Source: Paragemmobacter straminiformis
GTDB lineage: Bacteria > Pseudomonadota > Alphaproteobacteria > Rhodobacterales > Rhodobacteraceae
Length of the DNA stretch: 64,000 nt
NCBI RefSeq assembly: GCF_014243445.1
Contig: NZ_JACLQD010000001.1
Coordinates: 434,001 to 498,000 of the forward strand
Direction: 5' to 3'
Below, one piece after another: positions 7,381 through 22,118 of the stretch; position 1 is the stretch's first letter, and every line of letters starts with the position of its first letter. Made by a program: the position numbers and the translations under genes. The notes under the pieces are model-generated. The model ran no database searches. It was not told where the DNA came from and saw only the letters and a program-made list of their open reading frames with translations.

Positions 7381-7447
7381 CGGGGCCTCCATGCCATGCC
7401 GCGCCGCAGAATCGGGGCGGGTCGAGACAGAGATAAAGGATGAAAGC

Positions 7448-7506
7448 GCAATATTGCAATAGATGAAGCGCCGTTTTTGTAATTTTATGTCTGCCGCGTT
7501 GCGGCA
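7448..7506. promoter_or_regulatory. ccr upstream region: two palindromes
   Basis: The first palindrome is GCAATATTGC (7448-7457), inside TTGCAATATTGCGC on the minus strand. It overlaps a possible -35 element TTGCAA placed 17 bp before TTATCT. The second is TGCCGCGTTGCGGCA (7492-7506), which overlaps the last codons of the acyltransferase gene and lies about 112 bp before the ccr ATG. The latter recurs upstream of ecm and sdhC. Binding by a short-chain acyl-CoA or PHB-type regulator is inference. Confidence 0.5.
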
Positions 7507-8876
7507 TCCGCCCGCTCCAGCCGCTGCAGGACTGGGGCTGCGTAAAAGGCCACCAGCCCCTCCTTGCCCGCCCGCACCTGCAAATCCGGCCCGATCATGC
7601 CGCGCCGCTGCAAATGGCGCAGCGCCCTGCGCAGGGTTTCGTCCAGACCGCCCGGATGCAACCGCAAGGACGCGCCGTCAGCCTCGAGCCGTCGGACCAG
7701 ATCGGCCACCCGCGCGGCCAAAGCCCCCGCATCCCCCGCGCCCAGCGCCGCGGCGACCAGAGGCACGGGCAGCACCGGCACCGACCGCACGATGCGCGCC
7801 ATCATCTCGGCCCCCAGCGCCGCGACCGGATCACCCCCGGCATCGCCCCCGGCACCGGCACCGGATTCGGCCATGAAGGCGCGCAAGGACACCGGCGCGC
7901 CGAATCCCGCAGCCGTGGCCCCGAAACCGGGAAAATTGCCCCGCAGCATCCGCCACAGCATCCGCGCCGAAAATGCAGCCGCCCCCACCACCGTGGGCCG
8001 GAAACGCCGCTGCCCCGTATCGGCCGCCTCGACTAGCACGCGGTCCTCGAGCACGCGGTCATAGGCCAGCCCGACCGGCACGAACAGCACGTCGCGCCCC
8101 GCCGGATCGAAGCCCGCGACGAAATAGGACAAAAGCCCCAGCCGCGCCGCGCCCACCTTTCCGTCAAGGCTCAGCCCGCCCTCGGGAAAGATCGCCTGCG
8201 CCACCCCTTCCGAGGCCGCCATCTGCACATAGCGCGCCAGAACCCGCCGGTAGAGCGTGTTGCGCGACCCGCGGCGGATGAAATAGGCCCCCATGCCGCG
8301 GATCAGACGGCTCAGCGGCCAGACCCGCGCCCATTCGCCCACGGCATAGGAAATCGCCTGCCGGTCGGCGATCAGCCATGTGACCAGCACGTAATCCATG
8401 TTGCTGCGGTGGTTCATCACGAAGACCACGGTCGCGTCGCGGTCGATCCGGTCGAGCGTTTCCGACACCGATCCGATGCGCACCTCGTAAAAGGCCCGGG
8501 TGATCCAGCGGGCCAATTGCACGGCAAAGCCGAAATACATGGTCGCCGAAAAGGCGGGCACGATCTCGGCGGCATAGTCGCGCGCCTGCTCGGCGGCGAC
8601 ATTGGGGGGAATCCCGGCCTCGGCCGCCTGTTCCGCCACGGCCTGCATCACCTTGGGGTCATAGGCCAGCCGCAAGATCATGTCGTGACGCCGCGCCAGC
8701 TTGAAGGGCGCTATGGGCCGTTCCAGCCGCGCGTTCAGCCGCGCGACCGCCTGCTCCATCCGGCGGCGGAAGAACCAGCGCACCGAAGGCACCAAAATCC
8801 GGTCAAGCGCCGCGATGGCCGACAGGACCACCACAAGGATGACCAGCCAAAGCGGAAGTTCGACCGTCGCATTCAT
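7485..8876 (-). CDS. Membrane-bound glycerol-3-phosphate/lysophospholipid acyltransferase (PlsC/PlsB-like)
   Basis: This 463-aa enzyme starts with a membrane segment (about residues 8-30, LPLWLVILVVVLSAIAALD). It carries the acyltransferase HX4D box NHRSNMDYVL near residue 156 and the glycerol-3-phosphate-binding AIFPEGGLSLDG about 70 residues later. The long C-terminal part resembles the extended PlsB-like acyltransferases of alphaproteobacteria. It probably acylates glycerol-3-phosphate or lysophosphatidate at the inner membrane. It is transcribed toward ccr, separated by about 100 bp containing the ccr promoter. Confidence 0.85.
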   Translation of the reverse strand: MNATVELPLWLVILVVVLSAIAALDRILVPSVRWFFRRRMEQAVARLNARLERPIAPFKLARRHDMILRLAYDPKVMQAVAEQAAEAGIPPNVAAEQARDYAAEIVPAFSATMYFGFAVQLARWITRAFYEVRIGSVSETLDRIDRDATVVFVMNHRSNMDYVLVTWLIADRQAISYAVGEWARVWPLSRLIRGMGAYFIRRGSRNTLYRRVLARYVQMAASEGVAQAIFPEGGLSLDGKVGAARLGLLSYFVAGFDPAGRDVLFVPVGLAYDRVLEDRVLVEAADTGQRRFRPTVVGAAAFSARMLWRMLRGNFPGFGATAAGFGAPVSLRAFMAESGAGAGGDAGGDPVAALGAEMMARIVRSVPVLPVPLVAAALGAGDAGALAARVADLVRRLEADGASLRLHPGGLDETLRRALRHLQRRGMIGPDLQVRAGKEGLVAFYAAPVLQRLERADAATRQT

Positions 8877-8915
8877 GCAGCCACGCTGCCCGCAGCGCGG
8901 TCCGCTGTCAAAGCG

Positions 8916-9233
8916 TCAGTTCAGCGTGACGGATTTCTGCGTGCAGACATCGACATCCTGCACCACCGTCTCGTCGCCATCGTCAAAGACCGCGCGCAGG
9001 TCGAAGACGCAATTGCCCGACCCGTTGTCGAAGTTCACCGACAGGCTTGCCCCCGGCGCCAGCGTCTGGCCGCCCAGAAGATTCTCTTCCCACGACACAT
9101 CACCATCGGCCGAGCCGTAGAAGCCGACGATGCCGAAGCCGGTCGCGTTGACCACATCGAAAACCGCATCCTGCGCCGCCACAGGGGCAGCCATCAGAAC
9201 CGAAACGACACCAAGCGCAAGCGAAACGCGCAT
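8916..9233 (-). CDS. Small secreted protein of unknown function
   Basis: This 105-aa protein has a clear signal peptide (MRVSLALGVVSVLMAAPVAAQ, in pieces MRVSLALG and VLMAAPVAA, cleavage after AAQ or ADA-like site). The mature domain is a beta-rich fold: FDVVNATGFGIVGFYGS, WEENLLGGQTLAPG, NCVFDLRAVFDDG. Two Cys (NCVF and DVCTQ) could form a disulfide. Relatives are common in Rhodobacterales as periplasmic hypothetical proteins. A TGCCGC palindrome lies 38 bp upstream of its start. Confidence 0.8.
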   Translation of the reverse strand: MRVSLALGVVSVLMAAPVAAQDAVFDVVNATGFGIVGFYGSADGDVSWEENLLGGQTLAPGASLSVNFDNGSGNCVFDLRAVFDDGDETVVQDVDVCTQKSVTLN

Positions 9234-9598
9234 CGATCAAAGGCCCTTCGACCCTCGGCCCCCCTTGTTGTGCCGCAGCGCGGCAGGAGCCTTCGCCGTG
9301 AATATAGGTGCGGGATACCGAGTTGTTAAGAGGGTCCTCCCACGATCTGCATCGGCCAAGGCAAGGGGGGCTTTCCGCCCCCCTCGGCCCTGCGGGCCTC
9401 ACCCCCCGAGGATATTTGGGGCAAGAGGAAGGGAAAGCCGCCCTGTCCTTTTCACACAGCGCGCGGCACATCGGCCCGCCGGGGGCCACCGATGCCGCGC
9501 CGCGGAATGCCGCAACGCGGCGAATTGACAAGGAACGATTATGTCCTCTATTACCGTCCTGACGTAAGAAAATTGCCGAGAGCGCGCAGGAGTCCCCC
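9234..9598. other. Divergent intergenic region upstream of ecm
   Basis: These 365 bp separate the secreted-protein gene (minus) from ecm (plus). They hold a TGCCGC palindrome at 9271-9285, an extragenic GAGGATATTTGGGG repeat near 9411-9425 preceded by a C-rich run, a second palindrome at 9508-9522 and the ecm promoter. No coding frame with a ribosome site was seen. Confidence 0.7.
9508..9554 (+). promoter_or_regulatory. ecm promoter with abutting palindrome
   Basis: TTGACA (9525-9530) is followed after 17 bp by CTATTA (9548-9553), or after 18 bp by TATTAC. This is a good sigma70 match about 45 bp before the ecm ATG. The palindrome TGCCGCAACGCGGCG (9508-9522) ends 2 bp before the -35 hexamer, a position suited to an activator or to a repressor that covers the -35. 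The same palindrome lies upstream of ccr and sdhC. Confidence 0.6.
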
Positions 9599-11563
9599 AT
9601 GACCGCCAAGAAAGACAGCCCCTGGCTCTTCCGCACCTATGCCGGCCATTCCACGGCCACCGCCTCGAACGCGCTCTACCGCACCAACCTTGCCAAGGGG
9701 CAGACGGGCCTGTCGGTCGCCTTCGACCTGCCCACCCAGACCGGCTATGACAGCGACCACGAACTCGCGCGGGGCGAGGTGGGCAAGGTCGGCGTGCCCG
9801 TGGCGCATCTGGGCGACATGCGCATGCTGTTCGACGCGATCCCGCTCGAGGCGATGAACACCTCGATGACGATCAACGCCACCGCCCCGTGGCTGCTGTC
9901 CCTTTACATCGCCGTGGCCGAAGAACAGGGGGCCGACATCGCGGCCCTGCAAGGCACCGTGCAGAATGACATCATCAAGGAATATCTCTCGCGCGGGACC
10001 TATATCTGCCCGCCTGCGCCCTCCTTACGCATGATCACCGATGTCGCGGCCTATACGCAGAAACACCTGCCGAAATGGAACCCGATGAACGTCTGCTCCT
10101 ACCATCTGCAAGAGGCGGGGGCGACGCCCGAACAGGAACTTGCCTTTGCCCTCGCCACCGCCTGCGCCGTGCTGGACGACCTGAAAACCAAGGTCCCCGC
10201 CGCAGACTTCCCCGCGATGGTGGGCCGCATCTCGTTCTTCGTGAACGCGGGCATCCGCTTCGTCACCGAACTGTGCAAGATGCGCGCCTTTGTCGACCTA
10301 TGGGACGAGCTTTGCGCCACCCGCTACGGCATCACCGACGAGAAATTCCGCCGCTTCCGTTATGGCGTGCAGGTGAACTCGCTCGGTCTCACCGAACAGC
10401 AGCCCGAAAACAACGTCTACCGCATCCTGATCGAGATGCTCGCCGTGACGCTGTCGAAAAAGGCCCGCGCCCGCGCCGTGCAACTGCCCGCCTGGAACGA
10501 GGCGCTTGGCCTGCCCCGCCCGTGGGACCAGCAATGGTCGCTGCGGATGCAGCAGATCCTCGCCTATGAAACCGACCTTCTGGAATACGACGATCTTTTC
10601 GACGGCAACCCCGCCATCGACCGCAAGGTCGAAGCCCTCAAGCAAGGCGCGCGCGAGGAACTGGCGCAGATCGACGCGATGGGCGGGGCGGTCGCGGCCA
10701 TCGATTACATGAAATCCCGTCTTGTCGAATCGAACTCCGACCGTCTTGCCAAGATCGAGTCGAAAGAAACCACCGTCGTCGGCGTCAACCGCTGGACCGA
10801 GGCCGCGCCCTCTCCCCTTACCGCAGGCGATGGCGCGGTCATGCAGGCCGATCCGCAGGCCGAGGCCGACCAGATCGCCCGCCTGACCGCATGGCGCGAA
10901 GCCCGCAACCCGCAGGCCGTGGAAAAGTCGCTCGCCGCCTTGCGCCAGGCCGCCGCCACGGGGGCCAACATCATGCCCGCCTCCATCGCCGCCGCCAAGG
11001 CGGGGGTGACCACCGGCGAATGGGGCGCCGTGATCCGTCAGGCCTTTGGCGAATACCGCGCCCCCACCGGCGTTTCCTCTGCCCCCTCGAACCGGACCGA
11101 GGGGCTAGAGCCGATCCGCGACGCCGTGGCGACCCTTTCGGCCAAACTCGGCCGCCCGCTCACCTTCCTCATGGGCAAACCCGGCCTTGACGGCCATTCC
11201 AACGGAGCCGAGCAAATCGCCGCCCGCGCCCGCGACTGCGGCATGGCGATCCATTACGACGGCATCCGCCTGACCCCTTCAGAAATCGTGGCCTCTGCCG
11301 CCGAAAAGCGCGCCCATGTCATCGGCCTGTCGATCCTCTCCGGCTCGCACCTGCCGCTGATCACCGAAACCCTCGACCGCCTGCGCGCGGCGGGCCTGTC
11401 GGACATCCCCGTCGTCGTGGGCGGCATCATCCCCGACGAGGATGCCGCCAAACTCCGCGCGATGGGCGTCGCCGCCGTCTACACCCCCAAGGACTTCGAG
11501 CTGAACCGCATCATGCTCGACATCGTCACGCTGGTCGACCGTCAGGCCATCGCCGCCGAGTAA
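9599..11563 (+). CDS. ecm: Ethylmalonyl-CoA mutase, adenosylcobalamin-dependent
   Basis: Ecm converts (2R)-ethylmalonyl-CoA to (2S)-methylsuccinyl-CoA. It is a single-chain acyl-CoA mutase of 654 aa. The N-terminal TIM barrel has WLFRTYAGHSTATASNALYR, SVAFDLPTQTGYDSDH and YHLQEAGATPEQELAFALA. The C-terminal cobalamin domain has the lower-axial-His motif GLDGHSNGAEQ (DxHxxG) and VVGGIIPDEDAAKL. It is distinguished from the methylmalonyl-CoA mutase at 56286 by length and by substrate-loop sequence. AGGAG precedes the ATG. It depends on the cofactor made by the cob genes in the same window. Confidence 0.97.
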   Translation: MTAKKDSPWLFRTYAGHSTATASNALYRTNLAKGQTGLSVAFDLPTQTGYDSDHELARGEVGKVGVPVAHLGDMRMLFDAIPLEAMNTSMTINATAPWLLSLYIAVAEEQGADIAALQGTVQNDIIKEYLSRGTYICPPAPSLRMITDVAAYTQKHLPKWNPMNVCSYHLQEAGATPEQELAFALATACAVLDDLKTKVPAADFPAMVGRISFFVNAGIRFVTELCKMRAFVDLWDELCATRYGITDEKFRRFRYGVQVNSLGLTEQQPENNVYRILIEMLAVTLSKKARARAVQLPAWNEALGLPRPWDQQWSLRMQQILAYETDLLEYDDLFDGNPAIDRKVEALKQGAREELAQIDAMGGAVAAIDYMKSRLVESNSDRLAKIESKETTVVGVNRWTEAAPSPLTAGDGAVMQADPQAEADQIARLTAWREARNPQAVEKSLAALRQAAATGANIMPASIAAAKAGVTTGEWGAVIRQAFGEYRAPTGVSSAPSNRTEGLEPIRDAVATLSAKLGRPLTFLMGKPGLDGHSNGAEQIAARARDCGMAIHYDGIRLTPSEIVASAAEKRAHVIGLSILSGSHLPLITETLDRLRAAGLSDIPVVVGGIIPDEDAAKLRAMGVAAVYTPKDFELNRIMLDIVTLVDRQAIAAE

Positions 11564-11578
11564 AGGCCAGTCGCGCAG

Positions 11579-11619
11579 GCGCACCCGACAGGGCGTAGGG
11601 TGCGCAGGTGCTACGCACC
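11579..11619 (+). repeat. Alternative hairpins after ecm
   Basis: GCGCACCC / GGGTGCGC (11579-11586 with 11598-11605, perfect 8 bp) competes with GGTGCG / CGCACC (11599-11604 with 11614-11619). The GTAGGGTGCGC...CTACGCACC layout resembles extragenic palindromes common in proteobacteria. No T-run follows, so a terminator role is uncertain. Confidence 0.4.
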
Positions 11620-11664
11620 TTCCACCGCCTTCTGACGAAACCTCGTCATTTCCCCGCCTTGCGT

Positions 11665-11678
11665 TTGACCCAAATCAA
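11665..11678 (+). promoter_or_regulatory. FNR/FnrL-type box
   Basis: TTGACCCAAATCAA differs at one position from the FNR consensus TTGAT-N4-ATCAA. It lies 59 bp before the ATG of the DUF6455 gene, well placed for oxygen-responsive control in an organism with FnrL. Binding itself is inferred. Confidence 0.65.
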
Positions 11679-11737
11679 GGCCCGATCCGTGCCACGGGCG
11701 CAGGGTTCCCCCAAGCAACATAGCCAAAGGGACCCCC

Positions 11738-12097
11738 ATGTTCGACCGTATCCGCGCCTTCCTCGACCGCTGGCATGACCTGAAATCCGTCGACGCCCTG
11801 TCCGACCGCGAGCTTGACGATCTTGGCATGTCGCGCGCCCAGATTGCTGAATTCATCGCCATCCCCGCCGATGTGCCCGACCGCATCGCCCGCATGGCCG
11901 CCGTATTCGGCATCCCCGAAGCCGAGCTTCAGGCCAGGCGCGCCGATTACCTCGAACTGCTGTCCACCTGCCACCACTGCCCCGACCGCGCCGCCTGCAC
12001 GCTTGCCCTGCACAAGGGCGACATCCGCAGCCCCGCGGACGCCGCCTTCTGCCCCAACGCCGAAATCTACGCCGGCCGCAGCCCGCTCGCGGCCTGA
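11738..12097 (+). CDS. DUF6455 family protein with DUF1127-like N-terminus
   Basis: This 119-aa cytosolic protein opens with a DUF1127-like helical motif (RWHDLKSVDALSDRELDDLG) and ends with a Cys-containing DUF6455 block (TCHHCPDRAACTLAL and FCPNAEIY). The four Cys could bind a metal or an iron-sulfur cluster; this is inference. The family is largely restricted to Rhodobacterales and is uncharacterised. The FNR-like box 59 bp upstream suggests it is induced or repressed at low oxygen. Confidence 0.8.
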   Translation: MFDRIRAFLDRWHDLKSVDALSDRELDDLGMSRAQIAEFIAIPADVPDRIARMAAVFGIPEAELQARRADYLELLSTCHHCPDRAACTLALHKGDIRSPADAAFCPNAEIYAGRSPLAA

Positions 12098-12208
12098 CCG
12101 GAACGGGAGGGTCCTCCCCTCTCCCGACCCTGCCCCCCCGCACCCGTGATGGAACGGGGCGGGGGGGGTTCGTGTTACTCCTGTGTCTCAACAAGGAGGA
12201 CACGACCG

Positions 12209-12856
12209 ATGCTCCGCTTGCTTACCCTTTCCGCACTGCTTCTCGCCGGTGCCGCCCATGCCCAGGACCAGATGGCGGTCACCGCATGGACCGACCTGAA
12301 CCTGCGCGCAGGCCCCGGCCCGGTCTATCCCATCGTCGCGGTCATCCCCGCACAAACCGCCGTCAGCGTCGGCGGCTGTCTGGCCGAGCAAAGCTGGTGT
12401 CAGGTCACCTTCGACGGCCAGACCGGCTGGGCCTCGGGCGATTATCTGACCGTCGTGGAAAACAACGCCCCCGTGGCGATCTACCCCAACCGCGACCGCT
12501 TCAAGCTCAAGACCACGACCTATGACGGCGACACCGCAGGCAATGCCACAGCAGGCGGCGCAATCGGGGCCGTTGCGGGCGCGCTCATCGCGGGGCCCAT
12601 CGGCGCGGCCGTGGGCGGTGCGGTCGGCGCGGCCAGCGGGGCTGCGTCCACGCCCGAAACGACGGTCACAACCTATGTGCGCGACAACCCCGTCGATCCG
12701 ATCTACCTCGAGGGCGAGGTCGTGACAGGCGCAAGCCTGCCCGAAACCGTGACCTTGCGGCCCGTGCCGGAAACCACCTACTCCTACGCCTATATCAACG
12801 GCGTTCCGGTTCTTGTCGAAAACGGCCAGCGCCGCATCATCTACATCGTGCGCTGA
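12209..12856 (+). CDS. Periplasmic SH3 and DUF1236 domain protein
   Basis: This 215-aa protein has a signal peptide (MLRLLTLSALLLAGAAHAQ). A bacterial SH3 domain follows at about residues 24-85 (LNLRAGPGPVYPIVAVIPA ... WASGDYLTV), of the type that binds peptidoglycan stem peptides. A glycine-zipper segment (GGAIGAVAGALIAGPIGAA) could insert into or associate with a membrane. The C-terminus (TTYSYAYINGVPVLV, RRIIYIVR) is a DUF1236 motif. AAGGAGGA precedes the ATG at 12209, which excludes the longer frame from 12146. Function is unknown, probably envelope related. Confidence 0.88.
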   Translation: MLRLLTLSALLLAGAAHAQDQMAVTAWTDLNLRAGPGPVYPIVAVIPAQTAVSVGGCLAEQSWCQVTFDGQTGWASGDYLTVVENNAPVAIYPNRDRFKLKTTTYDGDTAGNATAGGAIGAVAGALIAGPIGAAVGGAVGAASGAASTPETTVTTYVRDNPVDPIYLEGEVVTGASLPETVTLRPVPETTYSYAYINGVPVLVENGQRRIIYIVR

Positions 12857-12906
12857 CCTGCCCGGACGGGGCGGGCCAACCGCCCGCCCCGAACCGCAAG
12901 GATGCC

Positions 12907-13104
12907 ATGCCCCTCTTGCTGCTTTTTCTGCTCCTCGGCACGCTGGCCTATATGTGGCTCGCGCGCCGCAACGCGACGCTGACCCGGCATTGCCGCTGGC
13001 GGCTTGACCGCACGACAGGCCCCACGGCATGGCGCTGTGCCGCCTGCGGGGCAGAAACCACCGCCCCGCAAGGAAAATCCCCGCGCGACTGCCTGCGCCC
13101 CTAG
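12907..13104 (+). CDS. Small membrane-anchored protein with a CxxC motif
   Basis: This 65-aa protein has one N-terminal membrane segment ([19 protein letters not shown]) followed by a basic, Trp- and Cys-containing soluble part ([23 protein letters not shown]). The CAAC pair with the earlier Cys could bind zinc. I have no characterised relative. Its TAG stop overlaps the convergent deoD stop by 3 nt (CTAG), which supports both reading frames. Confidence 0.65.
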
Positions 13105-13805
13105 GCGAAAGCCGCCGTCAGCGCGATCTCGACCATATCGCCGAAACTCCGCTCGCGCTGGTCGGCGGGCAGGGCCTCGCCCGTCAGGATGTGGTCCGAG
13201 ATCGTCAGCACCGCCAGCGCCCGCCGCCCGTAACGCGCGGCAAGGGTGTAAAGCTCGGCCGCCTCCATCTCGATGGCCAGCGTGCCATGCCGCTGCAACT
13301 GGTCCGACAGGTCCTGCCGCTCGTCATAGAAGGTGTCGCTGGAATAGACCCCGCCCACATGCGTGGTGATCCCCTTTGCCACCGCGGCCCCATGCGCCGC
13401 CGCCAGCAGCCCGAAATCGGCCACGGGCGCAAAGCTCAATTCGCGGAAGATCGACCGCGACGGGCTGCCCAGTGTCGTCGTCGCCTGCGCCAAGACCAGA
13501 TCGCGCACCTTCAGATGCGGCTGCAACGCCCCCGCCGACCCGATGCGGATCAGCGTCTGCGCGCCGAAATCGCGGATCAACTCGTTGGCATAGATCGAAA
13601 TCGACGGCATCCCCATGCCCGACCCGTGGATGGTCACGGGCTTGCCGCGCCATGTGCCGGTATAGCCCAGCATCCCCCGCACCTCGTTCACCAGACGCGG
13701 GTTTTCAAGAAAGGTCTCCGCCGCCCAGCGCGCGCGATAGGGGTCTCCCGGCAGCAGCACCGTCTCGGCAATGTCGCCCGCCCTTGCCCCGATATGAACC
13801 GTCAT
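13101..13805 (-). CDS. deoD: Purine-nucleoside phosphorylase, DeoD type
   Basis: DeoD cleaves purine (deoxy)nucleosides with phosphate to the base and (deoxy)ribose-1-phosphate, in salvage. The 234-aa sequence has the hexameric-PNP motifs [49 protein letters not shown], the ribose/purine-binding [11 protein letters not shown] and the Asp loop [16 protein letters not shown] precedes the ATG at 13805. Confidence 0.96.
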
Positions 13806-13922
13806 CCCCGCCTCCCTGCGTTTCGCGCCAAACTAGGGCCAAGGCGTCACAAGGGAAAGGGGGCCTTGCCGCCGGAAATGCGCCGCGCTTGCCAGACCGG
13901 ACCCAAAGCCCCGCCATGCAAA

Positions 13923-13946
13923 AGGGCCGGAGAAATCCCCGGCCCT
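13923..13946 (-). terminator. Intrinsic terminator of the sdh operon
   Basis: On the minus strand, AGGGCCGG pairs with CCGGCCCT around an 8-nt loop and is followed by TTTTGC. It lies 24 bp past the sdhB stop. Confidence 0.85.
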
Positions 13947-13969
13947 GTTCCGCATCAGCGCAGCCGCCC

Positions 13970-14746
13970 TCAGACCACGCGGTCGACCATCATCCGCTTG
14001 ATCTCGGCAATCGCCTTGGCGGGGTTCAGCCCCTTGGGGCAGGTCTTGGCGCAGTTCATGATCGTGTGGCACCGATACAACTTGAACGGGTCCTCCAGCG
14101 CATCCAGACGCTCGGGCGTGGCCTCGTCGCGGCTGTCGATGATCCAGCGATAGGCATGCAGCAATGCTGCCGGCCCCAGATACTTGTCGCCATTCCACCA
14201 GTACGACGGGCATGACGTGCTGCACGACGCGCACATGACGCATTCATAAAGCCCGTCCAGCTTCTTGCGATCCTCGATCGACTGCCGCCATTCCTTGGCG
14301 GGGCGGTTCGTCTTTGTCTCGAGCCAGGGCATGATGCTCGCATGCTGGGCGTAGAAATGCGTCAGATCGGGGATCAGGTCCTTGATCACCGGCAGGTGCG
14401 GCAAGGGGTAGATCTTCACATCGCCGCGCACCTCGTCGAGGCCATAGATGCAAGCCAGCGTGTTGATCCCGTCGATGTTCATCGCGCAAGACCCGCAAAT
14501 CCCCTCGCGGCAGGACCGGCGGAAGGTCAGCGTCGGGTCGATCTCGTTCTTGATCTTGATCAGCGCGTCCAGAACCATCGGGCCGCAGCTGTCCATATCG
14601 ACGAAATAGGTGTCGACGCGCGGGTTCTCGCCGTCATCGGGGCTCCAGCGATAGATCTGGAACTTGCGCACGTTCTTGCCCGCAGGCTTCGGCCATGTCT
14701 TGCCCGTGCGGATTTTCGAATTCTTCGGCAGCGTGAACTGGACCAT
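13970..14746 (-). CDS. sdhB: Succinate dehydrogenase iron-sulfur subunit
   Basis: SdhB passes electrons from FAD in SdhA to quinone through three clusters. The 2Fe-2S ligands are in [12 protein letters not shown], the 4Fe-4S ligands in [16 protein letters not shown], and the 3Fe-4S ligands in [17 protein letters not shown]. At 258 aa it is normal length for alphaproteobacteria. The ATG at 14746 ([12 protein letters not shown]) is used rather than upstream frames. It is the last gene of sdhC-sdhD-sdhA-two lipoproteins-sdhB and is followed by a terminator. Confidence 0.98.
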
Positions 14747-14750
14747 AGGC

Positions 14751-15053
14751 TTATCCCTTCCATTCCGGGAATGAGTAGAGCGGCCGGCTCGGAGGCTGGC
14801 CTGATTTCTGGTAGACGCAGGCGTCAAAGACCGCCGCAGGGTCGCGCCCGCCAAGGTAGTCCGACGTCACCGTCACATCGACCGAGGCCGACATCCGCCC
14901 GTCCGATCCGACGCCAACCCCGACCTCGCCGCGCGGGCCCGCCGCAAGACGCGCCCGCTCGAAACATTGCCGTTCCGCCTGCTCGACCGTGACCGGCCCG
15001 CACGCGGCCAGTGTCAGCAAAGAAAGGCCAAGCGCCAGCCCCCGCATCATCAT
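14751..15053 (-). CDS. Small lipoprotein inside the sdh operon (proximal to sdhB)
   Basis: This 100-aa protein has a type II signal peptide ([19 protein letters not shown]; lipobox LAAC). The mature part is rich in Val/Asp with repeated [13 protein letters not shown] and ends [10 protein letters not shown] ... SFPEWKG. The start overlaps the upstream gene stop as ATGA, and the stop is 4 bp before sdhB, so it is a true operon member. Function is unknown. Its length equals that of its upstream neighbour and both have a central Cys near the C-terminus, which suggests a related pair. Confidence 0.8.
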
Positions 15054-15352
15054 ATCACCGGCGCGGCGATGCCCGCCGCCCTGAAACAGGCCTGCGTCGG
15101 GGCGCGGCCCGCGATCGTGCGGATCAGCGCCTCGGTCGAAGACCCCGCCACCGTGCCCACATCGCGCACCAGCGTCTGGATTTCCGCCGCATCGGCATTC
15201 TGCACGATGCATCGTGTCGCAGCCCCGTTGCCGACCACGGGCGAGACGACCGTCTCGGCAGTGCGTCGCCCCACCTTGTCGGCCACATCTTCGGGCGAAC
15301 AGGCCGCCAAAAGACCAAGGGCAAGAACGGGCATCAGTTTCAGGCAAGACAT
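15050..15352 (-). CDS. Small lipoprotein inside the sdh operon (distal)
   Basis: This is a 100-aa lipoprotein (MSCLKLMPVLALGLLAACS; lipobox LAAC). The mature sequence has PEDVADKVGRRTAETVV, a Cys in ATRCIVQNADA and another in APTQACFRAAG. It lies about 113 bp after sdhA and is translationally coupled (ATGA) to the next lipoprotein gene. I recognise no domain. Its position suggests co-expression with succinate dehydrogenase, but a role in the complex is only a guess. Confidence 0.8.
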   Translation of the reverse strand: MSCLKLMPVLALGLLAACSPEDVADKVGRRTAETVVSPVVGNGAATRCIVQNADAAEIQTLVRDVGTVAGSSTEALIRTIAGRAPTQACFRAAGIAAPVI

Positions 15353-15465
15353 GGGCAAACCTCCGGTCAGGACCAATCCCGACCAGCCTGCACCGGAACG
15401 GATCGGGGCCGCAGCCCCGCCCCTTCCGCGCCCCGCCGAAGCGGCATCTTCCCGCCGAAGGCCCA

Positions 15466-17268
15466 TCAGAACTTGCGCTCCGCGGGGGCGATCTTCTTCA
15501 GGCTGATCCCGCCTTGGGCTTCGGTCGTCAGCGGGTCCACATGCACCGCGCGATAGCCCAGCGTGACCTTGTCGCCATCGACCCATGCCAGCGAATGCTT
15601 GCGCCAGTTGGCATCGTCGCGCTGCGGGTGGTCCTCATGCGCATGCGCGCCCCGGCTTTCGGTGCGGGCATGCGCGCCATAGATCGTGGCCAGCGCGTTG
15701 GGCATCAGGTTGGTCAGTTCCAGCGTTTCCATAAGATCGCTGTTCCACACAAGGCTGCGGTCCGTGACCTTCAGGTCCGCGACCTTGCCCGCAATCGCGG
15801 TCATCTTCGCCTCGCCCTCGGCCAGCGTCTTTTCGGTGCGGAACACCGCCGCGTCGGCCTGCATCGTGCGCTGCATCTCGAGCCGCAGCTCGGCGGTGGG
15901 CGTGGCGCCCGCCGCATGGCGCAAACCGTCGAACCGGCCCAGCGCCTTGTCCACCTCGGCCCTGTTCACGGGGGCCACGGCTTCCTTGGGGTTCACAATC
16001 TGCCCGGCCCGGATGGCCGCGGCCCGGCCGAACACCACAAGGTCGATCAGGCTGTTCGACCCCAGCCGGTTCGCGCCATGCACCGAGGCACAGCCCGCCT
16101 CGCCCACGGCCATCAGGCCGGGGAACACGGCATCCGGATTGTCGGCGGTCGGGTTCAGCACTTCGCCCCAATAATTCGTCGGAATCCCGCCCATGTTGTA
16201 GTGAACCGTCGGCAGCACCGGGATCGGCTCTTTCGTCAGGTCCACACCCGCGAAAATCCGCGCCGATTCCGAAATGCCGGGCAGCCGCAGGTCCAGCGTT
16301 TCCTTGGGCAAATGGTTAAGGTGCAGGTGGATATGGTCGCCATTGGCCCCCACGCCCCGCCCTTCGCGGATTTCCAGCGTCATGCAGCGGCTGACATAGT
16401 CGCGCGGCGCGAGGTCCTTGTAGTGCGGCGCATAGCGTTCCATGAACCGCTCGCCATTGGCGTTGGTCAGATAGCCCCCCTCGCCCCGCGCCCCTTCGGT
16501 GATAAGGCACCCCGACCCGTAGATGCCGGTCGGGTGGAACTGCACGAATTCCATGTCCTGAAGCGGCAGACCCGCCCGCGCCACCATGCCGCCGCCATCG
16601 CCGGTGCAGGTATGGGCCGAGGTCGCGCTGAAATAGGCGCGGCCATAGCCGCCCGTCGCCAGCACCACCATCTTGGCGTTGAATACATGGATCGTGCCGT
16701 CATCCAGCTTCCACGCCACGACACCCGTGCAACGCCCTTCGGTCATGATCAGGTCAAGCGCGAAATACTCGATGAAGAATTCCGCGTTGTTCTTCAGGCT
16801 TTGCCCGTAAAGCGTATGCAGGATCGCATGCCCCGTGCGGTCGGCCGCGGCACAGGTGCGCTGCACCGGCGGGCCTTCGCCATATTCGGTCGTATGGCCG
16901 CCGAACGGGCGCTGGTAGATCTTGCCCTCTTCGGTGCGCGAGAACGGCACGCCGTAATGCTCCAGCTCGTAGACCGCCTTGGGGGCCTCGCGCGCCAGAT
17001 ATTCCATCGCATCCGTGTCACCCAGCCAGTCCGACCCCTTGACGGTGTCGTACATGTGCCATTGCCACGAATCCGGCCCCATGTTGCCCAGCGAGGCCGC
17101 AATCCCCCCCTGCGCCGCAACCGTGTGGCTGCGCGTCGGGAACACCTTGGTCACGCAGGCCGTGCGCAAGCCCTGCTCGGCCATGCCCAGCGTCGCCCGC
17201 AGCCCTGCGCCACCGGCACCCACCACGACCACATCATAGTCGTGAACCTCATACGGATAAGCCGTCAT
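15466..17268 (-). CDS. sdhA: Succinate dehydrogenase flavoprotein subunit
   Basis: SdhA holds covalently bound FAD and oxidises succinate to fumarate. The dinucleotide fold is [20 protein letters not shown], the FAD-linked His lies in [11 protein letters not shown], and substrate residues are in [13 protein letters not shown]. Near the C-terminus, [15 protein letters not shown] is typical. The length of 600 aa is normal. It starts 10 bp after the sdhD stop. Confidence 0.98.
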
Positions 17269-17278
17269 GTCGAACCCT

Positions 17279-17650
17279 TCAAAGAGCGATCTTGACCAGG
17301 GCGTAAAGCCCCGTGGCCGTGATCACATAGGAAAGCGAATGCGCCAGAATGACCAGGCCGCGCCGCGTGGACCCGTGGCTGTAATCCTCGATCATCATCG
17401 TGGCCCCCTTGGCAAAGTGCCGCATCGAGACGAACAGCACCAAGCCCGTCAGAATGGCCGGAAAAGGCCGCGCAAAGGTGGCAACCACGGCCTCGTGGCT
17501 TTGCCCCAGCGCATGGCCGAAGATGTAAAGCCAAGTCGGCACAAGGAAAGCCAGCGCCACGGCGCTCGCGCTCATATACCAGTGATGCTCGGTCCCGGTA
17601 TGTGCGGCACCCTTGCCCACGGCCCGTTTGCGGTCGGTCAGATAACGCAT
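17279..17650 (-). CDS. sdhD: Succinate dehydrogenase membrane anchor subunit
   Basis: This 123-aa protein has three hydrophobic segments (about residues 28-48, 62-80 and 98-120). It carries the conserved [12 protein letters not shown] entry, a heme/quinone region ALGQSHEAV, and [14 protein letters not shown]. It anchors the SdhAB dimer and helps bind heme b and ubiquinone. It is 7 bp from the sdhC stop. Confidence 0.95.
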
Positions 17651-17657
17651 GATGCCC

Positions 17658-18041
17658 TCAGACGATCAGAACGGTCAGGATGGTCAGCACGACCGATCCG
17701 ATGATGCAGCCCCAGCCCAGTTTTTCCGCCGTGGGAATGTCCAGACCATGCCCCGCGTCAAAATAGAGGTGCCGCAGACCGGCAAGGTAGTGGTACCACA
17801 GCGCCCAGGCCGAAAGCGTGAACACCAGATCCCCGAACCAGCTTGTCGCCACCGCATCGGCCACGGCGAAATACTCGGGCGACACCGCCGCCGCCAAAAG
17901 CCACCACACCGCCAGCATCGTGCCGACGATCAGCCCGTTCCCCGTGATCCGCGTCAGGATCGAGGTGATCGAGGTGAGTTGCGGACGATAAATCTGCAAA
18001 TGTGGGGAAAGCGGTCTCTCGACCCGCTTCGCTTCAGCCAT
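17658..18041 (-). CDS. sdhC: Succinate dehydrogenase cytochrome b556 subunit
   Basis: This 127-aa membrane subunit has the SdhC entry RPLSPHLQIYRPQLTSITSI and three membrane segments. The heme-ligand His is within WYHYLAGLRHLYFDAGHG. It is first in the operon; GGAGGG precedes the ATG. Upstream lie a TGCCGC-type palindrome, a tandem TGTGATCAC element and the hairpin array. Confidence 0.97.
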   Translation of the reverse strand: MAEAKRVERPLSPHLQIYRPQLTSITSILTRITGNGLIVGTMLAVWWLLAAAVSPEYFAVADAVATSWFGDLVFTLSAWALWYHYLAGLRHLYFDAGHGLDIPTAEKLGWGCIIGSVVLTILTVLIV

Positions 18042-18254
18042 TTCGGTTCCCTCCGTCGCTGTCAGCCGGCAAGGCCGGTCCGCGCTTCGATCTCATTGCG
18101 TGAATGAATAGCGCTTTTTCCGGCCGAGTCACGCTTCACAACGCCGCAGCGCGGCGATGTTCGCGCTAAACCCCGAAGTTTTTTCAATTTGTGATCACAG
18201 GTTTCAAAACTGTGATCACTAAACGCCAAACCGTCGGAACCGCGCCAGCCGCCA
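18042..18254. promoter_or_regulatory. sdh promoter region with a palindrome and tandem TGTGATCAC sites
   Basis: On the minus strand TATTCA (18110-18105) is a possible -10 hexamer preceded at 16 bp by GTGACT. The palindrome CGCCGCAGCGCGGCG lies at 18142-18156. Two boxes, TGTGATCACA (18190-18199) and TGTGATCACT (18211-18220), are 21 bp apart start to start, which is two helical turns, so a dimer pair could bind one face. The regulator is not identified. No gene is seen here. Confidence 0.55.
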
Positions 18255-18362
18255 CGGTTTCTGACGCAGAAACCGGCACGGAATTTGGCGCAAATTCCGC
18301 CCGCACCGACCTGCCGCCGATTTTTGCGTCAAAAATCGCACCGGAATTTGCGTCAAATTCCG
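18255..18362. repeat. Array of four perfect 21-nt hairpins
   Basis: Four elements each have a 9-bp perfect stem and a 3-nt loop. They are CGGTTTCTG-ACG-CAGAAACCG (18255-18275), CGGAATTTG-GCG-CAAATTCCG (18279-18299), CGATTTTTG-CGT-CAAAAATCG (18318-18338) and CGGAATTTG-CGT-CAAATTCCG (18342-18362). Start-to-start steps are 24, 39 and 24 nt. They lie directly after the mch stop, so in the mch transcript they form a 3-prime cluster of stem-loops. They may stop transcription or protect the RNA. They also lie upstream of the sdh promoter. Confidence 0.8.
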
Positions 18363-18369
18363 CGCCCCG

Positions 18370-19401
18370 TCACAGCGGAACCAGCGCCCAGTAATCAAGG
18401 TCAAGCAGAACCTCGGGCGCATACTTCCCGTCCGCCCCCTTATGGGCAAAGGGGGCCGCGCCGTCCTTTACCGCCACCAGCCGCAACCGCAATGCGCCCA
18501 CGCCCTTGGCCCCCGTCTCGGCACGGTCAAGCACTTCCGACCACGCCCGCACCGTATCGCCCGCAAAGCACGGGTTCGCATGCGCCCCCGCATTCAGCGC
18601 CACGATCATCTGCGCATTGGCAAGGCCGTTGAAACTCAGCGCCCGCGCAAGGCTGATGACATGCCCGCCATAGATCAGCCGCCGCCCGTCCTCGCGCTGG
18701 GTCACATCGAAATGCACCTTGGACGTATTCTGCCACAGACGCGTGGCAAGCATATGCTCGGCATCCTCGATCGTGACCCCGTCCACATGGTCGATCTTCT
18801 CGCCAACCGCATAGTCGCCCCAGCGATGCCGCTCGCCCGCCAGCGCGAAATCATAGGCCGAAAAATCCAGCCCCTCGGGCACCACCAGCGATGCGGGATC
18901 GACCACCGCCGCCAGTTCCGGCACCACCGCCTCGGGCGCGGGGGCCGAAAGGTCGCGCTTCTTCACCATCACCCAGCGCACATAGTCCAGCACCACCACC
19001 CCGTGCTGGTTGAACCCGCGACTGCGCACATAGACGACGCCGGACTTGCCGTTGGAGTTCTCCTTCAACCCGATCACAACCGATTCCGACCGCAGCGTAT
19101 CCCCCGCCCAGACCGGGGCCAGCCACCGCCCCTCGGCATAGCCAAGGTTCGCCACCGCGTTCAGGCTGATATCCGGCACCGTCTTGCCAAAGACCGTATG
19201 AAAGGCGATCAGGTCATCCATCGGCGCCGCAGGCAGCCCGCAGGTCCGCGCAAAGGCATCGCTGGAATAGACCGCCCCCCGCGCCGGATAAAGCGCATGG
19301 TAAAGCGCCCGCTCTCCGCCCGACAGCGTGCGCGGCACCGCATGGACGATGGTCTCGCCCAGACGGTAATCCTCGAAGAAGCGGCCTGCGTTGGTTTTCA
19401 T
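18370..19401 (-). CDS. mch: Mesaconyl-CoA hydratase (MaoC-like, beta-methylmalyl-CoA dehydratase)
   Basis: Mch hydrates mesaconyl-C1-CoA to (2R,3S)-beta-methylmalyl-CoA in the EMC pathway. It is a 343-aa double hot-dog enzyme. The opening MKTNAGRFFEDYRLGETI and stretches ERALYHALYPARGA, VANLGYAEGRWLAPV, HRWGDYAVGEKIDHVDGVT and ARALSFNGLANAQMIVALNAG closely match the Rhodobacter enzyme. AAGGATT precedes the ATG. It is last in the operon mcl2-nnrU-DUF1737-mch. Confidence 0.95.
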   Translation of the reverse strand: MKTNAGRFFEDYRLGETIVHAVPRTLSGGERALYHALYPARGAVYSSDAFARTCGLPAAPMDDLIAFHTVFGKTVPDISLNAVANLGYAEGRWLAPVWAGDTLRSESVVIGLKENSNGKSGVVYVRSRGFNQHGVVVLDYVRWVMVKKRDLSAPAPEAVVPELAAVVDPASLVVPEGLDFSAYDFALAGERHRWGDYAVGEKIDHVDGVTIEDAEHMLATRLWQNTSKVHFDVTQREDGRRLIYGGHVISLARALSFNGLANAQMIVALNAGAHANPCFAGDTVRAWSEVLDRAETGAKGVGALRLRLVAVKDGAAPFAHKGADGKYAPEVLLDLDYWALVPL

Positions 19402-19472
19402 GATTGCGTGAATCCTTTTCTAACGCGCCCGTGCATGCGTCTGCATCACCTGTGCATTCCGCCCGGCCCCCC

Positions 19473-19500
19473 CGTTCCACCCCCTTCGGGGCGGAACGGT
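19473..19500 (-). other. Intra-operon hairpin between DUF1737 gene and mch
   Basis: CCGTTCC-A-CCCC / GGGG-C-GGAACGG forms a 12-bp stem with one mismatch and a CTTC loop. It lies in the 112-bp gap before mch. It has no T-run on the minus strand, so it could be an attenuator, a processing site or an RNA-stability element. Confidence 0.45.
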
Positions 19501-19513
19501 AAAGGCAGCGCAC

Positions 19514-19717
19514 TTACTGCTCGCCCAGTTTCAGGTCGGGCGAATAGTCCCCCGGAACCTCTTTCACCACGGCCTGTCCGCAGCGCATCACGCCCTTGGC
19601 GGCGTCATAGGCATAGGTGGGGCCGCCATGCAGCTCCCACCCCTTGCTCAGCGCCAACGAGACCTTGTGGCAAAAGGCAGACGTGTCGTCCTCTGACAGA
19701 AAACGATACAGTTTCAT
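19514..19717 (-). CDS. DUF1737 domain-containing protein
   Basis: This 67-aa protein starts MKLYRFLSEDDTSAFCHKV and has SKGWELHGGPTYAYD, the DUF1737 signature. The function is unknown. An upstream in-frame start (19744) would overlap nnrU, so the ATG at 19717 is chosen; its start lies 5 bp after the nnrU stop. It sits in the EMC operon with mcl2 and mch. Confidence 0.85.
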   Translation of the reverse strand: MKLYRFLSEDDTSAFCHKVSLALSKGWELHGGPTYAYDAAKGVMRCGQAVVKEVPGDYSPDLKLGEQ

Positions 19718-19721
19718 AAGG

Positions 19722-20267
19722 TTACCCCCAAGGCTGCACGCCAAGCCAGTTGTGGATCATCATCACGATCCCCACCACGACCAATGCGCCGACCACCGCC
19801 ATCACCTCTTTCGATGCAGGCACCGGCGGGTTCTTCGTCCATTGCGGTTCCGCGCGGTTGATCAGGATCACCGATCCCACCGCCCAGGCCAGCAATCCGC
19901 CGAACAGCAGGACCGAGGCAAGGTCGCCGTTAACCAGCAAATGCGCGACCGCCCAGGTCTTAACGGCTGTCAGTTGCGGATGCCGGATCTTCCGCGTGAT
20001 CGCGGTTTTCAGTCCAGACGCGGCGTAAAGATAAAACGCCAGCAACATCAGCGTGTTGTTGATGTGGATCATAAAGGCCGGCGGATACCACAGGTCCACC
20101 TGATCGACCCCGCGATAGCCGAGAATCATGCAAACGACCCCGACAATCGTTACCGCCCCCAGAACCGCCTTGCCGCCGTTCCCCATCCGCGCCCGCGCCT
20201 CGGGCGCCAGACGTTTCAGAAAATGGGCGCCCGTCCACAGCACCAAACCCAGTATGATCAACAGCAC
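19722..20267 (-). CDS. NnrU family membrane protein
   Basis: This 181-aa integral membrane protein has about five hydrophobic segments, starting LLIILGLVLWTGAHFLKRLAP. It contains the NnrU features YPPAFMIHINNTLMLLAFYL and HLLVNGDLASVLLFGG. NnrU was named for nitrite/NO-reduction gene clusters, but no denitrification gene is nearby. The start is GTG at 20267 with AGGGAG upstream. It is co-transcribed with mcl2. Confidence 0.88.
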   Translation of the reverse strand: MLLIILGLVLWTGAHFLKRLAPEARARMGNGGKAVLGAVTIVGVVCMILGYRGVDQVDLWYPPAFMIHINNTLMLLAFYLYAASGLKTAITRKIRHPQLTAVKTWAVAHLLVNGDLASVLLFGGLLAWAVGSVILINRAEPQWTKNPPVPASKEVMAVVGALVVVGIVMMIHNWLGVQPWG

Positions 20268-20310
20268 GGCAATACTCCCTTGAACCCGTCAGTTGCCGCG
20301 CACCCTGCCC

Positions 20311-21156
20311 CTATTCGGCCAAGGCCGCAATCGCCTCGGCCTTTGCCAGCACCGCTTCGGCCCCGGCAACGTGCAGATTTTCAACGATCTTGCCGTCAAG
20401 AACCGCCACGCCCTGCCCTGCGGCCCGCGCTTCGGCATAGGCTGCGATCTGGCGCCGCGCCAAGGTTACCTCATCCGGCGAAGGGGCGAAAATCTCATTG
20501 GCGACAGGCAGTTGCAACGGATGGACCAGCGTCTTGCCGTCAAACCCCATATCCCGCCCCTGCTCGCATTCCGCCCGCAGCCCCGCCTCGTCCTTGAAGG
20601 CATTGTAGACCCCGTCCACGATCACCCGCCCCTCGGCTTTTGCCGCCAACAGGCATAGGCCCAAGGCCGGCTGCAACGGCATCCGGTCGGCGCGGAAACG
20701 GCTTCCCAACTCTTTTGCAAGATCATTGGTCCCCATGACCATCCCCTCAAGCCGCCCATGCCCTGCAATCGCACCCGCGTTCAGCATCCCCTTCGCCGTC
20801 TCGAGCATCGCCCAAAGCGGTTTGCCGGTCAGCGCGGCCACGGCATCCAGATCGGCGGGTCCGTCAACCTTCGGCACGAGAATCGCGTCCACCCCGGCAA
20901 GCGCGCCGAAATGCAGGGCATCCCCGCGCCCCCACTCGGTGTCGAATCCGTTGATCCGCACGATCCGCAGGCGCGGCCCGTAATCGACCTCGGCCAGAAA
21001 CCGCGACAGCGTGGCCCGTGCGGCAACCTTCTCGTCCGGCGCCACCGCATCCTCGAGATCGAAGATGATCGCATCCGCCGCCAACTCCCGCGCCTTTTCC
21101 AAGGCACGCTCTTTCGAGGCCGGAATATACAGAACAGACCGGAACGGGCGTGACAT
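20311..21156 (-). CDS. mcl2: (3S)-malyl-CoA thioesterase, HpcH/HpaI family
   Basis: Mcl2 hydrolyses (3S)-malyl-CoA to malate and CoA, completing acetyl-CoA assimilation after the malyl-CoA lyase step. It is a 281-aa citrate-lyase-beta-type TIM barrel. Landmarks are PFRSVLYIPASKERALEKA, IIFDLEDAVAPDEK, VRINGFDTEWGRGD, MVMGTNDLAKELGSR and DGKTLVHPLQL. It resembles the Rhodobacter Mcl2 thioesterase rather than the longer Mcl1 lyase, which is not in this window. GGAGG precedes the ATG at 21156. A TGCCGC-type palindrome lies 67 bp upstream. Confidence 0.9.
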   Translation of the reverse strand: MSRPFRSVLYIPASKERALEKARELAADAIIFDLEDAVAPDEKVAARATLSRFLAEVDYGPRLRIVRINGFDTEWGRGDALHFGALAGVDAILVPKVDGPADLDAVAALTGKPLWAMLETAKGMLNAGAIAGHGRLEGMVMGTNDLAKELGSRFRADRMPLQPALGLCLLAAKAEGRVIVDGVYNAFKDEAGLRAECEQGRDMGFDGKTLVHPLQLPVANEIFAPSPDEVTLARRQIAAYAEARAAGQGVAVLDGKIVENLHVAGAEAVLAKAEAIAALAE

Positions 21157-21222
21157 GTCGGACTCCTCCAAGCAATATTCTTTCGCCTGAAGACACCATT
21201 TCGTCACTTTCGGCAAGCCCAA

Positions 21223-21243
21223 TTTTGCCGCAGCGCAGCAAAA
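21223..21243. promoter_or_regulatory. Palindrome upstream of mcl2
   Basis: TTTTGCCGCAG and CGCAGCAAAA form near-perfect arms (TTTTGC / GCAAAA flanking CGCAGCGCA). The core TGCCGCAGCGCAGCA (21226-21240) differs by one base from the TGCCGC-N3-GCGGCA palindrome upstream of ecm, ccr and sdhC. It abuts the stop codon of the upstream permease gene. Confidence 0.45.
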
Positions 21244-22003: not shown

Positions 22004-22118
22004 CGACGCCTCCGAAACCCTGCCCCGCGGCCTTTAGCGCAAACAAGTGCGGCATACCACCTTTTGCCGCATGCAATGGCATACCGAGACGCTTGCCAGA
22101 CGGCTTTTGCAAGCGTAG

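Follow-up and report, generated by a model that had tools for sequence, protein, structure and literature searches.

Short palindromes precede three genes of the ethylmalonyl-CoA pathway, ccr, ecm and mcl2, in a 64,000-nucleotide stretch of the Paragemmobacter straminiformis genome (contig NZ_JACLQD010000001.1, positions 434,001 to 498,000; the whole of this stretch is hereafter called the window). Judged by sequence, the common form of these sites is the published box of PhaR, the regulator that senses polyhydroxybutyrate (PHB), and it appears probable that the palindromes are PhaR sites and that PhaR represses the ethylmalonyl-CoA genes until PHB draws it away. PhaR and its motif are already known; the ethylmalonyl-CoA pathway as a target would be the new part, and no report of a link between the two was found in the open-licence literature searched. 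A first-pass annotation of the same DNA had proposed a palindrome, and with it one regulator, shared by the ethylmalonyl-CoA and succinate genes; the feature covering ccr, ecm and mcl2 is real and stronger than described there.

The region contains ccr, a plsB-like gene, ecm, sdh genes, mch, mcl2 and mdh. The three genes in question and their boxes are given below, with strands where assigned; the scores are those of the Sinorhizobium meliloti PhaR position weight matrix.

6100–7392, minus strand: ccr, crotonyl-CoA carboxylase/reductase (TIGR01751, 633 bits)
7397–7411, minus strand: proximal ccr PhaR-type box, TTCTGCGGCGCGGCA on the minus strand, its centre 12 bases before the ccr start codon; score 7.9
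9508–9522: ecm PhaR-type box, 2 bases before the −35 hexamer; score 5.0
9599–11563, plus strand: ecm, ethylmalonyl-CoA mutase, named from context (the models matched are those of methylmalonyl-CoA mutase)
20311–21156, minus strand: mcl2, CitE/malyl-CoA lyase-like (PF03328; TIGR01588 below its cut-off), which we take from context to be 3S-malyl-CoA thioesterase
21226–21240: mcl2 PhaR-type box, TTTTGCCGCAGCGCAGCAAAA with its arms (21223–21243); best match of the matrix in the window, 21.9 bits

Form and frequency of the palindrome

All five palindromes of the first-pass annotation, at 7492, 9271, 9508, 18142 and 21226, are present, but the form TGCCGC-N3-GCGGCA that they were said to share is exact only at 7492 and 9271; the copies at 9508 and 21226 have one mismatch and that at 18142, before sdhC, has two. 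As literally written, the palindrome exceeds expectation only slightly in this GC-rich window (30 matches with up to two mismatches vs. 20.46 expected, a count reached by 2 of 100 shuffles). Genome-wide, there are 7 exact places, and 139 with at most one mismatch vs. 37 for the reversed control. Because three of the 7 exact places (L004, L005 and L007) lack a purine-N-pyrimidine centre, the literal form was dropped as a definition in favor of YGCRNYGCR, the sequence common to the aligned sites (hereafter the core), which is flanked on the outside by TGC and GCA or near forms and is present in all five reported sites as well as in the proximal ccr site.

The TGCCGC-type form differs from phaP-type boxes at inner positions, with C for T and G for A. 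The pattern TKCYGCRNYGCRGMA, which covers both forms, occurs at 15 places in 4.12 Mb, compared to 3 for the reversed-pattern control; this 64-kb window accounts for five of the 15 (binomial P ~2 × 10−6, a flattering value given that the pattern was drawn up after the sites had been seen) and phaP for two. When the S. meliloti matrix was applied to 63980 window positions, the mcl2 site ranked 1, 9271 ranked 8, 9508 ranked 11, 7492 ranked 24 and the sdhC palindrome 67, with the proximal ccr stretch among the top five. A+T-rich arms like those in S. meliloti, as measured by these scores, are clear at mcl2, weak at ccr and ecm, and absent at sdhC.

Conservation upstream of the ethylmalonyl-CoA pathway genes

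The relatives examined at ccr and ecm were taken from the best 80 of at least 593 loci with ecm from one genome scan. Usable upstream sequences numbered 75 for ccr and 79 for ecm; the five loci without a usable ccr upstream either lacked a match with 45% identity that began before residue 31 or had fewer than 150 bases. The mcl2 and mcd sets consisted of 30 loci each, own genome included, out of 44 (mcl2) and 45 (mcd) genomes with a match; the mcd query was identified by structure matches to 6es9, listed merely as an acyl-CoA dehydrogenase, and 8ciw, a methylsuccinyl-CoA dehydrogenase. Dinucleotide shuffles and 63 other palindromes of the same form served as controls for the core.

Upstream of ccr, the core was found in all 75 relatives (shuffle mean 22.8, maximum 31; 20/75 for the best of the 63 other palindromes), in every case centred between −75 and −5. 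The proximal box, of the form CGATTCTGC-RNY-GCGGCA, is absent from the first-pass list, yet it is the best conserved ccr copy. It follows a predicted promoter, the pattern of which is conserved in the relatives:

7431–7459, minus strand: predicted ccr promoter, TTGCAA (7454–7459), 17-nt spacer, TTATCT (7431–7436)

TTGCAW-N16-18-TA precedes ccr in 65 of 76 sequences, window included, and in 54 of the 55 sequences in which both elements were found, the proximal box begins 47–53 nt after the conserved TTGCA. The box would thus lie at about +20, some 20 bases past the predicted transcription start, where a bound protein would be able to block transcription.

Two other sequences near the ccr promoter were considered. 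The distal box listed in the first-pass annotation (7492–7506, score 2.5) overlaps the end of the plsB-like gene and occurs at this site, before its A+T element, in 11/75 relatives, or in 19/75 if any core centred between −130 and −100 is counted, so that its support from conservation is weak. The sequence GCAATATTGC was rejected as a shared motif, being exact in 8/75 ccr and 0/80 ecm upstreams, and was kept solely as part of the ccr promoter. Separately, a second conserved element was observed at 7454–7490, comprising ATAAAATTACAAAA and TTGCAATATTGC, two TTRCAA-like boxes that are mostly 18 nt apart; A[AG]NTTNCA-N18-TTGCA is found at ccr in 45/76 sequences and the N19 variant in 5. This element, composed of 7475–7488 together with 7454–7459, has some likeness to the arrangement known for RamB, in which an 18-bp spacer separates two ScfR boxes, and may be of that kind.

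At ecm, the core was present in 78/79 relatives (shuffle mean 20.1, maximum 27; best of the 63 other palindromes, 23/79), with its centre between −150 and −60 in 73/79. The following promoter was read from the sequence:

9525–9554, plus strand: predicted ecm promoter, TTGACA (9525–9530), 18-nt spacer, TATTAC (9549–9554)

The first-pass annotation had correctly noted that the ecm copy ends 2 bp before a good −35 hexamer, and this arrangement is conserved: of 80 sequences, 69 had a gap of 5 nt between core and TTG and 3 a gap of 4 nt (one of the 80, L062, is an invalid upstream and counts among those without a match), the box is centred near −46, and in 73 of 81 sequences, counting the window, TTGAC comes after the box. 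Two further sequences lie nearby:

9271–9285: upstream ecm copy of the first-pass annotation, lying 38 bases ahead of a small minus-strand gene that looks to encode a secreted protein; score 6.1
9493–9507: weaker box-like sequence abutting the ecm box, TGCCGCGCCGCGGAA, which matches TKCYGCRNYGCRGMA; score 1.5 (low)

The 9271 copy was rejected as a supported site: among eight relatives having the small gene, none had the core at the same place and two had it elsewhere within 200 bases.

The core was also found upstream of mcl2 in 27 of 29 relatives (28 of the 30 loci when the own genome is included; shuffle mean 7.2). Counted by position, the region of the mcl2 site likewise gives 28 of 30. The check suggested in the first-pass annotation, a search for the motif upstream of other genes of the pathway, gave a divided answer for mcd, with the core in 27 of 29 relatives and none in this genome (27 of 30 loci in total; shuffle mean 8.9). 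Two other genes with frequent cores are not claimed as targets, namely, plsB (49/60), probably because its upstream region overlaps the plsB–ecm gap, and mch (10/17), where the matches are low-scoring and probably coding, with equally conserved flanks. Upstream of mdh, TTTTGCCGCATGCAATGG at 22064–22081 resembles a broken box; the core occurs in 1/4 mdh upstreams of relatives.

The sdhC upstream region

17658–18041, minus strand: sdhC (TIGR02970)
18142–18156: sdhC palindrome of the first-pass annotation; score −0.7, rank 67 of 63980, unsupported as a PhaR box

The extension of the shared regulator to sdhC and the succinate genes is not borne out. The palindrome was found at the reported place in none of 33 relatives; when all 250 bases preceding sdhC were considered, the core was present in 8/33, compared to 7.1 by shuffling. 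We rejected sdhC as a member of the regulon on these grounds, although PhaR binds the S. meliloti sdhC promoter weakly in gel shift (PMC12542648), which counts against the exclusion. Instead, sdhC has a palindrome of its own, GTGATCAC (TGTGATCACA), with two copies here (18190–18199 and 18212–18219); among relatives, 32 of 33 sequences upstream of sdhC carry GTGATCAC, and it is absent from the ccr, ecm, mcd, mcl2 and mch sets. Several A+T-rich palindromes, e.g. GGAATTTGGCGCAAATTCCG and GATTTTTGCGTCAAAAATC, are also present in the mch–sdhC gap at 18260–18370.

PhaR and the joint absence of boxes

The genome encodes one phaR (TIGR01848, 159.6 bits; both PhaR Pfam domains, PF07879 and PF05233), adjoining a phasin-like gene, phaP (PF09361, just below its cut-off). 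Two boxes lie upstream of phaP (TGCTGC-GGT-GCAGCA and TTCTGC-ATC-GCAGCA) and a third precedes phaR. In relatives, the box is found before phaP, phaR and ppdK (three genomes by clustering, two named by scan), as well as before a rhamnulose-phosphate aldolase gene (three genomes by clustering, one named). Gene calls near boxes in relatives are mechanical and often wrong in GC-rich DNA; use was limited to named clusters and, on the strength of position, to phaP and phaR. In gaps of this genome, two more PhaR-type boxes were observed (L135:1501–1515 and L134:1501–1515), before a small gene and ~200 bases before a gene for an ABC-transporter binding protein.

PhaR is nearly universal, being present in 59 of 61 genomes of the family and 388 of 390 in a sample of the order (completeness of at least 95%). 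Of the four PhaR-less genomes in all, two retain ccr, G003 (complete) and G033 (74% complete). In neither of these was the core detected upstream of ccr, ecm or mcl2, and G003 has none at mcd either; the G003 mcd match (L280) has one stop inside. The ccr leader of G003 still reads GATTCTGCGCCACGGC, that is, half a box. In a set of twelve genomes, 10 of which encode PhaR, the core was present at ccr in all 8 assessable genomes with PhaR (ccr is split in G028, and G058 lacks it). Pattern counts were 3, 0, 2 and 5 in the four PhaR-less genomes vs. 2–23, with a median of 14, in 35 genomes with PhaR (Mann-Whitney P = 0.0011, for counts unscaled for genome size).

Conservation of the ccr box in other families

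The set from other families comprised the ccr upstreams of 40 genomes from 32 other alphaproteobacterial families, out of 48 genomes with a ccr match. The core was present in 39 of the 40, compared to 18 for the next palindrome of the same form, and 35 had a match to the S. meliloti matrix of at least 9 bits, compared to 0.33 in mononucleotide shuffles. Some of these sites are textbook in form, e.g. TTATGCTGCATTGCAAAAAAA. Given the 39/40 count, a PhaR–ccr link would predate the family. That PHB itself gates the ethylmalonyl-CoA pathway across Alphaproteobacteria, with PhaR holding down ccr, ecm, mcd and mcl2 until granules titrate it, is a broader proposition that we regard as about evenly balanced.

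Proposed control by PHB and alternative explanations

Flux from acetate or crotonate passes through 3-hydroxybutyryl-CoA, which is the PHB monomer and a precursor of crotonyl-CoA, the substrate of Ccr. With little PHB in the cell, free PhaR would occupy the boxes about 20 bases after the predicted ccr start, directly before the ecm −35 hexamer and upstream of mcl2, and when bound would lower the expression of ccr, ecm and mcl2 together with that of the phasin. On acetate, 3-hydroxybutyryl-CoA would rise and PHB would form; the granules would pull PhaR off DNA, as is known for phasin genes, and its removal would release ccr, ecm and mcl2, i.e. the pathway that uses the same intermediate. We infer the binding of PhaR at these promoters and the role of PHB as the signal in this organism; repression by PhaR is presumably likelier at ccr than at ecm and mcl2. 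That PHB would remove PhaR from ccr accords with observations in Paracoccus denitrificans, where Ccr is induced early when cells grow on acetate (PMC10370305, PMC6747724). The proposal that one regulator controls the partners of the pathway is supported for ccr, ecm and mcl2 and, in relatives, for mcd, with good grounds for naming PhaR as the candidate, and is unsupported here for sdhC.

Several observations weigh against this interpretation. Only two genomes pair ccr with the loss of PhaR, and one of them, G033, is AT-rich in addition to being 74% complete; the other, G003, keeps one core 55 bases before its plsB gene. Conversely, G234 has a divergent PhaR yet no core at ccr. At least 3 of the 15 genome-wide TKCYGCRNYGCRGMA sites lie inside named genes, and the mcd upstream of the genome under study lacks the core. 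The transcriptome of a Methylorubrum extorquens phaR mutant mentions no change in ccr or ecm ('ccr' occurs 0 times in the part of the text covered; PMC6520949), and on phaA and phaB, which are shared with the pathway, that study conflicts with an older report cited in it that found both raised. In P. denitrificans, the pathway shows basal expression on every substrate tested, and on acetate its expression drops at a late stage (PMC10370305, PMC6747724), such that PHB titration alone would be an insufficient explanation. The second conserved ccr element could be an extra input behind the Ccr behavior that PHB titration leaves unexplained.

Among the alternatives, the one that survives best, while still unlikely, is that PhaR, once bound to the boxes, acts as an activator, if only at the two genes with a box upstream of the −35 region, ecm and mcl2. 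The ecm box lies directly before TTGACA in 72/80 sequences, a position that also fits an activator and in this respect speaks against repression, and PhaR-activated genes with boxes are listed for Bradyrhizobium diazoefficiens (PMC6201568). However, the boxes of S. meliloti phaP1 and phaP2 flank the −35 hexamer and both genes are repressed, and the motif-bearing genes of S. meliloti belong mostly to a repressed module, with seven in activated ones (PMC12542648). Moreover, the ccr box is located after the predicted transcription start.

Considerably less probable is a regulator other than PhaR that recognizes the same half-sites before ccr, ecm and mcl2. A TetR-type activator of ccr, CcrR, operates in M. 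extorquens. RamB and PccR act on neighboring pathways in Paracoccus and Rhodobacter (PMC10370305). Against such a regulator, the same box is present at phaP and phaR, its loss accompanies the loss of PhaR in G003 and G033, and the separate ccr element is a better-looking candidate for the site of an ScfR protein.

Chance, which the first-pass annotation had named as the outcome that would overturn the motif, now has a very small probability: the mild excess of the literal palindrome in the window is what GC-rich DNA might yield, and chance appears to account for the sdhC palindrome, which is unconserved, and of the 9271 copy, unconserved at its place, but the conservation of the proximal ccr, ecm and mcl2 boxes (75/75, 78/79 and 28/30) far above the shuffle means refutes it for these sites. 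Equally slight is the prospect of a function at the RNA level, with the repeats serving as hairpins or terminators. A stem could be formed by TGCCGC-N3-GCGGCA, and the proximal ccr copy is inside the predicted leader, but the ecm copy precedes the promoter predicted for ecm, and a purine-N-pyrimidine centre is unexpected for a loop.

In Paracoccus, deletion of two ScfR regulators left ccr expression unchanged, and the signal that turns the pathway down was called unknown (PMC10370305). With repression by PhaR as the preferred interpretation, a named candidate with a located site makes the control of the ethylmalonyl-CoA pathway testable. If this interpretation is correct, a polymer store, beyond soluble metabolites, would steer acetyl-CoA between storage and growth at the 3-hydroxybutyryl-CoA branch point, which would also bear on bioplastic production in these bacteria.

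Comparison with known systems

CcrR of Methylobacterium extorquens likewise controls ccr but belongs to a protein family different from that of PhaR. RamB, PccR and other ScfR regulators act on acetyl-CoA assimilation in Paracoccus and Rhodobacter; the sites of RamB consist of two boxes with an 18-bp spacer, unlike the single short palindrome described here (PMC10370305).

The other two comparisons are with the PhaR systems themselves. In B. diazoefficiens, the PhaR consensus is TGCRNYGCASMA, and the mcl2 site, CGCAGCGCAGCA, fits it except for C replacing the first T; starts with CGC are also listed there, e.g. CGCATCGCAGCA. Unlike the set proposed here, the part of that text examined includes no ethylmalonyl-CoA genes ('ethylmalonyl' occurs 0 times; PMC6201568). 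When PHB is present, PhaR of B. diazoefficiens comes off DNA in vitro, a behavior stated to agree with that in P. denitrificans (PMC6201568), and PhaR of S. meliloti does so as well (PMC12542648).

In S. meliloti, the site of PhaR (AniA) is WNWD2NYGCRNYGCRNH2WNW, and removal or change of the palindrome abolished the gel shift; PhaR binding is efficient at ppdK and phaP but weak at rhaD and sdhC (PMC12542648). The system described here differs in that several boxes have GC-rich arms, and in that no ethylmalonyl-CoA genes are among the targets listed for S. meliloti in the part of the text covered ('ethylmalonyl' occurs 0 times; PMC12542648). The two share the YGCRNYGCR core and, at the mcl2 site, the A+T-rich arms, and the phaP, ppdK and rhaD targets of S. 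meliloti recur in the relatives of the window.

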